Assembly: GCF_007004665.1 (NCBI RefSeq)
Contig: NZ_ML660052.1
Coordinates: 372,001-436,000 of the forward strand
DNA from: Denitrobaculum tricleocarpae
GTDB lineage: Bacteria; Pseudomonadota; Alphaproteobacteria; Kiloniellales; Kiloniellaceae
Length of the DNA: 64,000 nucleotides
Direction: 5' to 3'
In this document: positions 16,138 through 19,329 of the stretch, one piece after another
How positions within the stretch are numbered: position 1 is the first letter of the stretch
How the letters are laid out: every line of letters begins with the position of its first letter
Made by a program: the position numbers and the translations under genes
Notes under the pieces: generated by a model
What the model saw: the letters and a program-made list of their open reading frames with translations, nothing else
What the model was told of the DNA's origin: nothing
Database searches by the model: none

Positions 16138-16788
16138 ATGGCCGTAGAAAAAATGCGCGAACAGGCGTATCAGTCCTTTACGCAGCATCTGCTGGCCAGT
16201 CATGTCCGGCCCGGTCAGTTCGTCTCTCAGCGCGAGTTGGTCGAGCTGACCGGTATGACCCTGGCTGCTATCCGGGAGCTGGTGCCGCGTCTCGAGGCGG
16301 AAGGTCTGATCACCACCGTGCCGCAGCGCGGCATGCAGATCGCGGCGATTGACTTTAATCTTGTGCGTGATGCCTACCAGTTTCGCGTTATCCTCGAAAA
16401 GGAGGCTGTTGCCCATTGCACCCGGACCGCCGCCGACGCGGACCTGGAACGCCTTCGCTGCGAACATCAGAACATTCTGGATGAAGCATTGGATGCAGGG
16501 GTCTCCAGGGATCTGGATGCCAGAGCCCAGAACGTTGACTGGGGCTTCCACGATTTCCTGATCGATTCTTTGAAAAACGAAATCGCTATCAAGACCTACC
16601 GTGTGAATTCTCTGAAAATTCGTTTAATTCGGCAGGAGCTGACCAGGATTGAAGGTCATGTCGTACCGGTGATGAAGGAACACCTCGAGGTCGTCAAGGC
16701 CATGCAGGCGCGGGATGTGCAGGGCGCGGTCGATGCATTGGTTTTCCACATCGAGCATGCACGCCAGCGCGCTATGGGCTTGTCTTAG
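16138..16788 (+). CDS. GntR-family regulator (FCD domain)
   Basis: A 216-residue transcription factor. The N-terminal winged helix contains VSQRELVELTGMTLAAIRE and LEAEGLITTVPQRGMQI. The C-terminal all-helical FCD domain (about 75-215) shows the metal/ligand pattern with YQFRVILEKEAV and DWGFHDFLIDSL and the late HIEHAR. FCD regulators usually sense organic acids and repress catabolic operons. It follows the dapA-family gene by 66 bp and likely controls both divergent transcripts. Confidence 0.87.
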   Translation: MAVEKMREQAYQSFTQHLLASHVRPGQFVSQRELVELTGMTLAAIRELVPRLEAEGLITTVPQRGMQIAAIDFNLVRDAYQFRVILEKEAVAHCTRTAADADLERLRCEHQNILDEALDAGVSRDLDARAQNVDWGFHDFLIDSLKNEIAIKTYRVNSLKIRLIRQELTRIEGHVVPVMKEHLEVVKAMQARDVQGAVDALVFHIEHARQRAMGLS

Positions 16789-16806
16789 ACTCCTGCGGTT
16801 CCGCGG

Positions 16807-17118
16807 TTAAGGCGTTGCTTCGTCGTGCCGGCCGTTGATCCGCTCGGCGGCTTTTACCGAGAGATCCTCGATATGCCATACTCTCTTTTTCAGGCAAGCG
16901 GCGTCGCTGGATGGAAGGGTTGCGTTTTCGATCGCGCTGAGGAGAGCGCTGCAGCGGTTTTCGATATCTTCCAGGACATCCCCGGTATCAGATAGAATCT
17001 GAAGCAAGCGCGTGCGGGGCGGCAGACAGTCTTCACGGTCATCAAGTTCATCGAAAAAATTCCGGCCGGTGTTTGCACCAGACAAATTCTCGACCCGTTC
17101 CAATTCGCTGTTGGGCAT
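16807..17118 (-). CDS. Hypothetical protein (103 aa)
   Basis: A 103-residue acidic protein beginning MPNSELERVENLSG, with several predicted amphipathic helices, four Cys and no signal peptide. I do not recognise the family. It converges with the GntR gene with an 18-bp gap. No better frame competes on either strand and codon use looks coding. Confidence 0.45.
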   Translation of the reverse strand: MPNSELERVENLSGANTGRNFFDELDDREDCLPPRTRLLQILSDTGDVLEDIENRCSALLSAIENATLPSSDAACLKKRVWHIEDLSVKAAERINGRHDEATP

Positions 17119-17298
17119 ACTTTGATCTCACGCGAGTGATCGCAGGCGACCCTCGTCCCTCAAGTGGGGCGACCAGCCTGTCCGGCGATCGCATCACGTG
17201 AAGTTACTTCAATAATCCGGTTAAAAGGTGTGATTTCAGCGTAGCAAGGGGATGTCATTTTTATTACTAAGTTCAATTAGTTAGGGAAATTACACCAG

Positions 17299-17505
17299 CT
17301 ATGCGGCAATCGCGCGGTTGTATGCTGTGGTTCGTGCGGCGTCGCGAATAAGGCAAAAAGGAAGGGCGTCCGGGTATGCCTGACGCCCTTTTCTTGTGTA
17401 AGAAGCTTTGCCCTTTTTGGCTTTGATCACCCGTTTTCGATACTTCGGATCGGCCAGTTCCCTGGCGGCGGGGTTCGGCCTGCGCGGCCGCTGTCGTCGT
17501 TTCAT
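17299..17505 (-). CDS. arfA: ArfA-like alternative ribosome-rescue factor
   Basis: A 68-residue basic protein. Residues about 11-40 (NPAARELADPKYRKRV, then KKGKASYTRKG at 30-40) match the core of ArfA, in Escherichia coli a DP-F-R-RV helix followed by KKGKGSYMRKG. ArfA recruits release factor 2 to ribosomes stalled on stopless mRNA when trans-translation fails. A terminator-like hairpin lies inside the frame at codons 39-50 (see next entry). This is how known arfA genes make their own mRNA stopless: the product is tagged by tmRNA and destroyed unless tmRNA is lacking. The sequence after residue 50 is unlike ArfA and may rarely be translated. Assignment rests on motif recall, not a search. Confidence 0.75.
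   Translation of the reverse strand: MKRRQRPRRPNPAARELADPKYRKRVIKAKKGKASYTRKGRQAYPDALPFCLIRDAARTTAYNRAIAA
17354..17390 (-). terminator. Intrinsic-terminator-like hairpin inside arfA
   Basis: Read on the minus strand, AAGGGCGTC (17390-17382) pairs perfectly with GACGCCCTT (17370-17362) around an 11-nt loop, and is followed by a C/T-rich tail with five T residues (17358-17354). It lies within codons 39-50 of the arfA-like frame, just after the conserved KKGKASYTRKG. Termination or RNase III cleavage here would give a truncated mRNA without a stop codon. Confidence 0.7.
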
Positions 17506-17529
17506 GTCATGTCTACCTTTGCTTTTTGA

Positions 17530-17549
17530 GCCGGAGATTTGTCTCCGGC
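17530..17549. repeat. Perfect 8-bp stem with TTTG loop
   Basis: GCCGGAGA and TCTCCGGC form a perfect stem 25 bp upstream of the arfA start, in the gap to the divergent von Willebrand lipoprotein gene. No T-tract follows on either strand, so it is more likely a leader structure or binding site than a terminator. Confidence 0.35.
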
Positions 17550-17712
17550 CGCGGGTTGTATCACATCCTGAAGGTGAGGGTGATTCTTTTTAATAAAGCT
17601 TAACACGGCCGCAAAATCGTCGCGTTATGTCATACATTTGCCACAGCCTTTCCGTCTTTCCGCCTTGGGAGGGGACCAGGATCCGGCCTTTCAATCCTTG
17701 GGGGATAAGGCG

Positions 17713-19329
17713 ATGATCATGAAACGAACTTTCGGCGGCGTTTTGATCGCCGGCGCACTCGCGCTGGCACTGGCCGGCTGCGCATCGGATACCGAGTACA
17801 GCGCGCACGGTTCCGGGCCAGGCGCCGCGCAGGCACCTGCAACCGGCGTTGCCCGCTACAAAGGAAGCAACGAATACTCCTCGACTTACGGCGGTGAGCG
17901 CTATCCGAGCCTGCCCTATCAGGGTTTTCAGCAGGTCGGGGAGCAGCCGCGCTCGACCTTCAGCGTCGATGTGGATACCGCGGCCTACGCCCATGTCAGG
18001 CGCATCCTGAAAAGCCGGCAGATGCCGCCGCGCGATGCGGTGCGCATCGAGGAGATGGTGAACTACTTCGACTACGCCTATCCGCAGCCGCGCAATCGGG
18101 AGGAGCCCTTCGCGATCGCGACCACTGTGCTGCCCAATCCCTGGAACGCGGAAACCCAGCTTTTGCATGTCGGCCTGCAGGGCTATAGCGTGCCGCGCCG
18201 CGCTCGGCCCCCGGTCAATCTGGTCTTCCTGATCGATGTGTCCGGTTCCATGAAGGGCGAGGACCGTCTCGGTCTCGCGAAACGCTCTCTCAAAGGTCTC
18301 ACCAAAGGTCTGCGGGCAGACGATCAAATTGCGATCGTGACTTTCAGCGACGGCACGCGCACCGTGCTCGACCCGACCTCCGCCAGGTACAAGCACCCGA
18401 TCGAGCGCGCGATCAACCGGTTGCGCGCGGGCGGCGGCACCGGTGGTGAGAAAGGGCTGGAGCATGCCTACTCCGTCGCGGATCATCACTTCAGCCCCGA
18501 CGCGGTCAACCGCGTGATCCTGATCAGCGACGGCGACTTTAACCTCGGGGCCAGCGACCCGGCGGCGATGCGCAAGCTCATCACGCAAAAGCGCAAGAGC
18601 GGCGTTTATCTGACGGTGCTGACCGTCGGCGACGGCAATGTGAACGACCATATTGCGCAGGCGCTGGCCCAGGCCGGCAACGGGCAGGCGGCACATCTGG
18701 ACAGCCTGATGGAAGCCCGCAAGGTGCTGGATGACGAGGTGACCGCGAACCTGATTCCCATTGCAGAGGACGTGAAGGTCCAGATCGAATTCAATCCTGA
18801 CATCATCGCCGGTTACCGTCTGATCGGGTACGAAACCCGTGCCCTCAGGAGCCGCGATTTCCGCAACGACCGGGTCGATGCCGGTGACGTGGGCAGCGGC
18901 CACAGCGTCACGGCACTCTATGAGATCACCCTGGTGCCGCACTTGGCACGGGCGCGTCAGGGCTTCCGCTACCAACTGGCCTCAAAGGATCCCGATCTCA
19001 AACGCATGGTCGCGGCGGAGGACGAATACGCTTACGTCAAGCTGCGTTACAAAGCGCCGGGGACCCGGAGCAGCCACGAGCTGGGTAAGGCAATCTCGAA
19101 GTTCGAGGAAGTCGAGCTCCTGGAAGATGCATCCGAGGATGTCCGTTTCGCGGTGGCTGTCGCGGCCTTCGGTCAGATCCTGCGCGGTGAGATCGATACC
19201 GGTGAGTTCAACTACGACGACGTCCTGGACCTGGCGCACAGCGGCCGCAGCAGCGACCCCTATGGCCGCCGGGGCGAGTTTCTGCAGCTTGTAAGACAGG
19301 CGGAGGGTTTGAGCGACGGAGCCTGGTGA
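17713..19329 (+). CDS. von Willebrand factor A lipoprotein (YfbK-like)
   Basis: A 538-residue envelope lipoprotein with signal peptide and lipobox LALAGC (Cys23). An N-terminal YfbK-type domain (STFSVDVDTAAYAHVRR, RIEEMVNYFDY) precedes a vWA domain whose metal-adhesion motif is DVSGSM (Asp175). The C-terminal part matches DUF3520, the usual partner of this vWA type. These proteins probably bind partner proteins through a metal ion; their physiological role is poorly known. I chose ATG 17713, six bases before another ATG at 17719, because the longer frame has no signal peptide. No obvious partner gene is adjacent. A hairpin follows at 19396. Confidence 0.87.
   Translation: MIMKRTFGGVLIAGALALALAGCASDTEYSAHGSGPGAAQAPATGVARYKGSNEYSSTYGGERYPSLPYQGFQQVGEQPRSTFSVDVDTAAYAHVRRILKSRQMPPRDAVRIEEMVNYFDYAYPQPRNREEPFAIATTVLPNPWNAETQLLHVGLQGYSVPRRARPPVNLVFLIDVSGSMKGEDRLGLAKRSLKGLTKGLRADDQIAIVTFSDGTRTVLDPTSARYKHPIERAINRLRAGGGTGGEKGLEHAYSVADHHFSPDAVNRVILISDGDFNLGASDPAAMRKLITQKRKSGVYLTVLTVGDGNVNDHIAQALAQAGNGQAAHLDSLMEARKVLDDEVTANLIPIAEDVKVQIEFNPDIIAGYRLIGYETRALRSRDFRNDRVDAGDVGSGHSVTALYEITLVPHLARARQGFRYQLASKDPDLKRMVAAEDEYAYVKLRYKAPGTRSSHELGKAISKFEEVELLEDASEDVRFAVAVAAFGQILRGEIDTGEFNYDDVLDLAHSGRSSDPYGRRGEFLQLVRQAEGLSDGAW

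Follow-up and report, generated by a model that had tools for sequence, protein, structure and literature searches.

An ArfA-family gene with a conserved terminator-like hairpin inside its reading frame in an alphaproteobacterial genus

The arfA frame and its genome setting

The window, by which we mean the whole 64,000-nucleotide stretch of Denitrobaculum tricleocarpae DNA (genome G000) analysed here, carries on its minus strand a short arfA frame with a hairpin inside it. The features of this locus are listed below.

17299..17505, minus strand: arfA frame of 68 codons, with its ATG at 17505 and its stop codon at 17301-17299
17356..17505, minus strand: part probably translated from a terminated mRNA, about codons 1-50, as judged from the position of the T tract; 84 of 115 columns invariant
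17362..17390, minus strand: in-frame terminator-like hairpin with a perfect 9-bp stem, from its fold and 25 of 29 invariant columns in four genomes
17355..17361, minus strand: T tract CCTTTTT, the presumed 3' end of the mRNA, from the sequence and 5 of 7 invariant columns in four genomes
17299..17354, minus strand: remaining frame and stop codon, unconserved (10 of 53 columns invariant, variable distance to the stop) and presumably seldom transcribed

The original prediction had named this 68-codon frame an arfA-like gene on account of the core KKGKASYTRKG. Both the frame and the core are present, on the minus strand, which had not been given, and the 68-residue product matches the Pfam model of ArfA (PF03889) over residues 18-42 with 28.3 bits, above the curated cut-off of 25.5. 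Its six best matches among solved structures are all ArfA chains (E 1e-4 to 2.5e-4), with which KKGKASYTRKG aligns; the basic KKGKG(S)Y.RKG segment of ArfA is the part that occupies the empty mRNA channel. No NCBIfam model matched the product, though NCBIfam may hold no ArfA model. One point against function in the manner of E. coli ArfA is that Ala18 of the E. coli protein is not conserved and aligns with Arg15 of the window protein; in an excerpt of PMC8012679, the change of Ala18 to Thr is described as abolishing RF2 activation. We regard this residue as critical to function in E. coli, but did not treat it as defining the family, and by its sequence the window frame is a member of the ArfA family.

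The genes next to arfA code for a vWA-domain protein and an uncharacterised protein of 103 aa, and all four genomes of the genus that were compared retain both. The downstream neighbour lies on the strand of arfA in all four, and the nearest gene pointing the opposite way ends at 16788, about 570 nt away. Outside the genus, arfA was found in none of 19 genomes of the same family and in none of the 57 of the order, those 19 included. The genome also carries an alpha_tmRNA (RF01849, 265.6 bits, on contig C15 of G000), and tmRNA was found in all 20 genomes tested. Three of its proteins have a release-factor domain, namely two full-length class I proteins and one short GGQ protein from a 142-codon open frame, which we label RF1, RF2 and ArfB from their sequences without a family search. 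Because the ArfB-like protein is present too, ArfA would be an addition to ArfB in this genome and no replacement for it. The host is indeed an alphaproteobacterium with an ArfB-like protein, in line with the prediction's statement that ArfB is the usual backup there.

Two further elements lie close to the gene. Near the end of the frame, a well-conserved AT-rich block at 17227-17283 contains an imperfect inverted repeat (TAACTAATTGAACTTAGTAA) and may serve the conserved 103-aa gene (17118..16807) as promoter or operator. Directly upstream of the arfA start, a perfect 8-bp inverted repeat at 17530-17549, kept in G003 and partly in G002, could affect translation.

Structure and conservation of the in-frame hairpin

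The stem AAGGGCGTC/GACGCCCTT (17390..17362, minus strand) is a perfect helix of 9 bp, six of them G-C, with a loop of 11, and is accompanied by a 2-bp inner stem. A perfect stem of this length followed by a C/T-rich tail with five T had been predicted, and we confirmed it, the hairpin and its CCTTTTT tail taking up codons 39-51 of the frame. Two C residues separate the stem from the T5 run, which is a point against a terminator. The 38-nt hairpin piece folds at -18.0 kcal/mol (z = -4.2), none of 200 shuffles doing as well, and a 91-nt piece has z = -3.6. A stock terminator scan, whose stated loop limit is 8, missed the hairpin. On the opposite strand, the stem is followed by the T run TTTTCTT, so it could act in both directions.

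An energy-based lax detector was undiscriminating, with 68 hits (dG <= -12) over 54 kb of ORFs. As it was too permissive for a GC-rich genome, we built a strict detector that requires a helix of at least 7 bp with at least 5 G-C pairs and a T4 run beginning at most 3 nt away. The E. coli arfA hairpin escapes the strict detector but not the lax one. Run over 136.5 kb of long ORFs (150 aa or more) in the window and six related stretches, the strict detector gave five sense hits; one was excluded from the rate, as its helix and loop size equal those of the L026 arfA hairpin and we took it to be another arfA hairpin, and this background is not fully independent because L085-L087 are orthologous to the window. 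When the window frame (L001) was recoded synonymously, a strict hit arose in 63 of 3000 trials, and the corresponding counts were 86 for L002, 32 for L004, 70 for L028, 155 for L026 and 87 for L027, each of 3000; L003, itself without a strict hit, gave 0 of 3000. Of 300 recodings each under the lax detector, those reaching the observed energy numbered 5 for L001, 30 for L002, 0 for L003, 5 for L004, 6 for L028, 2 for L026, 2 for L027, 0 for L046 and 0 for E. coli, and the hairpin energy of L002 is thus not significant by this measure. Across loci, 4 to 226 of the 300 lax recodings contained some hairpin at -9 or better.

Conservation is a stronger argument against a random hairpin than these chance statistics. 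The gene was found in all four genomes of the Kiloniellaceae genus examined, and the stem is kept in every one. Of the outcomes named as refuting the original prediction, neither the lack of an ArfA profile match nor the loss of the hairpin in orthologues was observed. The T5 run after the stem is present in three of them, the same number as are positive by the strict detector, and the G001 copy, with the tract TATTT, fails the strict test. Across the four genomes, 84 of 115 columns before the hairpin (the first 115 nt, a stretch without gaps) are invariant, as are 25 of 29 in the hairpin and 5 of 7 in the tail, against 10 of 53 in the rest of the frame; the difference between the part before the hairpin and that past the T tract is highly significant (Fisher p = 4e-11). 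The residues past the hairpin, which had been described as unlike ArfA, accordingly look unconstrained. Not one base varies in codons 36-42, a stretch that takes in the 5' arm, whereas among codons 1-35 nine vary synonymously only and 15 in amino acid. The stem arms are more conserved than the preceding codons (17/18 versus 84/115 columns invariant), a weakly significant difference (p = 0.04), and the sole change in the stem, A to G, leaves a G-U pair. The frame stays open across the hairpin in all four genomes and reaches its stop about 18-24 codons past the T tract. From the core to the end of the frame it is 78 nt in G000 and G003 but 96 nt in G001 and G002, and only the closest pair, that of G000 and G003, has similar tails after the hairpin. 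Because constraint is lost beyond the T tract and both the stop position and the tails vary, selection appears, from these comparisons, to end at the T tract rather than at the stop codon.

Several other accounts of the hairpin were rejected. A chance hairpin was dismissed on the strict background, the recoding test and conservation, and a terminator for a convergent gene on the orientation of the next downstream gene, which is on the same strand in all four genomes. A search of Rfam over 16500-18000 returned three weak matches (20.3 and 22.5 bits against 50, and 18.1 against 39), two of them overlapping the hairpin on the plus strand; we treated them as chance and rejected a known RNA family at this place.

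ArfA in other genomes and in phages

Of 398 genomes drawn from across the phylum, 51 had an ArfA match, three of them alphaproteobacterial (G000, G157 and G737), and the best-scoring 30 of the 48 non-alphaproteobacterial matches served as a calibration set. A loose test (four or more T, dG <= -12) found an in-frame hairpin in 22 of these 30 loci and the strict one in 10, while 8 had none by either. At three loci (L104, L105 and L109) a short hairpin follows the core directly, near the position it has in the window, and at five further loci, from family f200, the hairpins overlap the end of the core and have poor T tracts. As calibration loci show similar hairpins and positions, the design in the window falls within the known range; the eight loci without an in-frame hairpin indicate that ArfA does not require this design.

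Within Alphaproteobacteria, the Pfam model matched 9 of 385 genomes, 8 of them above the cut-off and G000 included, and an alignment of alphaproteobacterial cores used as query matched 23 of 384, some with short-loop or doubtful peptides. A strict in-frame hit was obtained at 7 of 24 alphaproteobacterial arfA-like loci (L001, L002, L004, L028, L026, L027 and L036). This count leaves out six weak or partial loci with no recognisable core (L009, L039, L043, L044, L045 and L047), at which the lax detector found no in-frame hairpin, and L005, L006 and L010-L016 are duplicates, their loci being entered elsewhere under different ids. We discounted L036 because its T tract is weak, its core lacks GKG and its same-genus relative L038 gave no hit; this leaves three clear lineages, which are the window genus, f119 (L028) and f130 (L026 and L027). 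A Poisson calculation puts three or more lineages at roughly 5e-5. The two genomes examined from the order of f130 are both ArfA-positive, and the pair retains the hairpin and T tract with a long indel beyond, as in the window genus. The f119 genome (G171) has its in-frame hairpin in an assembly that is 81% complete in 380 contigs, and misassignment of its arfA contig is possible. G737, whose genome is 100% complete in about 10 contigs, has a strong in-frame hairpin with a weak T tract, and at L046, a weak ArfA match in G128 (78% complete), the lax detector alone calls an in-frame hairpin, which is A-T-rich. The lax detector also made in-frame calls at L036 and at the phage loci L020, where the hairpin lies beyond the real stop, and L021.

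In the f130 genome G182 (L089:2085-5049), the gene order is RF3 (prfC), an MscS-type channel gene and arfA, and in E. coli arfA overlaps mscL, another mechanosensitive channel gene. Short-loop ArfA-like peptides without GKG occur at L034-L036, L038 and L040-L042. Four of them (L034, L035, L036 and L040) were scanned against Pfam, and three resembled DUF7230 below the cut-off; this likeness hints at a distant kinship between DUF7230 and ArfA. The 35-40 residues common to the ArfA loci are too few for a tree.

Among the 20 genomes tested for a third release-factor-domain match, ArfB is absent from 5 of 12 with ArfA (G157, G431, G171, G182 and G216) and from none of 8 without it. G285, of the same genus as G182, has the third match, which speaks against a simple exchange of ArfA for ArfB, although that genome is 10% contaminated. 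G157 and G431 are single-contig genomes of an order of small genomes that we took to be SAR11-like, its cores being near-identical to those of records named Pelagibacteraceae, and having no third match they have no ArfB. In this order 234 of 297 genomes match ArfA, or 125 of 150 of good quality, with weak matches in family f244 (E 3e-6 to 8e-4). None of 28 new loci among the best-scoring (L127-L154) has an in-frame hairpin, and in 27 of the 28 the stop comes at most 10 codons past the core; at four loci a weak hairpin spans or follows the stop. L029, L030, L007 and L008 are other SAR11-like ArfA loci.

ArfA-like frames also occur in phages. Eight of 11 matching records are phages of Brevundimonas, Citromicrobium and Ochrobactrum, with weak E-values of 0.05-0.8, six of the eight being annotated as ribosome-rescue factors, and the other three of the 11 are Salmonella. 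The six phage loci L020-L025 have no strict in-frame hairpin. Viral contigs scanned with the window ArfA and a phage collection scanned with a SAR11-type ArfA peptide yielded no relative. Excerpts of the literature mention ArfA in a SAR11 phage (PMC12753301) and in a Citromicrobium phage (PMC8953757).

For bacterial chromosomes, a survey excerpt (PMC11633108) confines ArfA to Gammaproteobacteria, some Betaproteobacteria and a few Bacillus, and gives arfB in 2,022 of 2,376 and arfA in 0 of 2,376 for Alphaproteobacteria by DNA profile searches. A second survey (PMC10070815), based on Pfam searches in annotated proteomes of complete genomes, reports Alphaproteobacteria to lack arfA. Small unannotated frames and DNA-level profiles would account for these misses. 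A search of the full-text literature, whose coverage leaves out most subscription journals, returned no report of chromosomal ArfA in Alphaproteobacteria. The hairpin-gated arfA design is already known from gammaproteobacteria, and what is new is its place in Alphaproteobacteria. We give an even chance to the view that this class holds two working forms of ArfA: a hairpin-gated backup to tmRNA in the window genus, f130, f119 and f187, with varied forms and positions and maybe separate origins, and an ungated, pre-shortened form with a normal stop in the SAR11-like order, where it would apparently replace ArfB.

Proposed mechanism and comparison with known systems

Gene and hairpin are kept in all four genomes and constraint collapses past the T tract; the locus therefore has the anatomy expected of a tmRNA-controlled non-stop arfA mRNA. 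We favour the reading, with a probability of roughly 0.84, that the gene is a true arfA with an intrinsic terminator within its frame, at which transcription stops, leaving most of its mRNA without a stop codon and making the protein a tmRNA-gated backup. By analogy with E. coli, ribosomes would stall at the 3' end of this mRNA after about codon 50, and as long as trans-translation works, tmRNA-SmpB would tag the nascent ArfA for degradation. Once trans-translation is lost or can no longer keep up, ArfA, truncated but active, would be released without a tag, bind stalled ribosomes and recruit RF2. The observation behind the original prediction is thus confirmed, and its mechanism is supported as far as sequence can tell.

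The non-stop message could also be made by RNase III cutting at the hairpin instead of by termination, with the same regulatory outcome. The E. coli arfA stem-loop can serve in both roles, according to an excerpt of PMC8012679, and G737 and the five f200 loci combine strong stems with poor T tracts. A stem of 9 bp with a 2-bp inner stem, followed by T5 in three of four genomes, is nevertheless more in keeping with a terminator than with a long RNase III duplex, and we think cleavage improbable in the window. We place still less weight on an ordinary, perhaps bidirectional terminator, with readthrough giving mostly stop-containing arfA mRNA outside tmRNA control. T runs flank the stem on both sides, as this would have it, and bidirectional terminators are often intergenic; a normal terminator, however, is expected 3' of the stop codon, whereas here the frame is open across the hairpin in all four genomes and the stretch to the stop is unconserved. 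The same-strand downstream gene and the distance to the nearest opposing gene also speak against it. An ArfA-like frame without function, arisen by chance or through decay, is hardly credible: the gene is limited to one genus of its family and its Pfam score is modestly above the cut-off, but it occupies the same place in four of four genomes, with a gap-free first 115 nt and a conserved hairpin.

Should these genes prove functional, views on how widespread and how old ArfA is would have to be revised. With hairpin-gated and stop-terminated forms in the same class, one could ask by direct comparison why the self-reporting design persists or disappears, and the stop-terminated form common in the SAR11-like order concerns some of the most abundant bacteria of the ocean.

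Among known systems, SAR11-type ArfA has the same core, with two examples above the Pfam cut-off. It is unlike the window gene in that, among its best-scoring loci in an order with 234 matching genomes, 0 of 28 have an in-frame hairpin and 27 of 28 stop within 10 codons of the core. An excerpt of PMC8012679 describes BrfA of Bacillus subtilis as an RF2-dependent rescue factor whose mRNA has a rho-independent terminator before the stop codon; the likeness is one of described design only and gives no basis for filing the window gene there. E. coli ArfA (YhdL; PF03889) differs from the window gene in the start of the hairpin (about codon 52, against codon 39), in its neighbour (mscL, against the vWA-domain and 103-aa genes) and in Ala18, which the window protein does not conserve. 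With E. coli arfA and the arfA genes of other classes, the window gene nevertheless shares the core DP..R.RV..KKGK.SY.RKG, an in-frame hairpin that lies past the core or overlaps its end, the frame staying open beyond the hairpin, and a genome that carries the genes for tmRNA and RF2.
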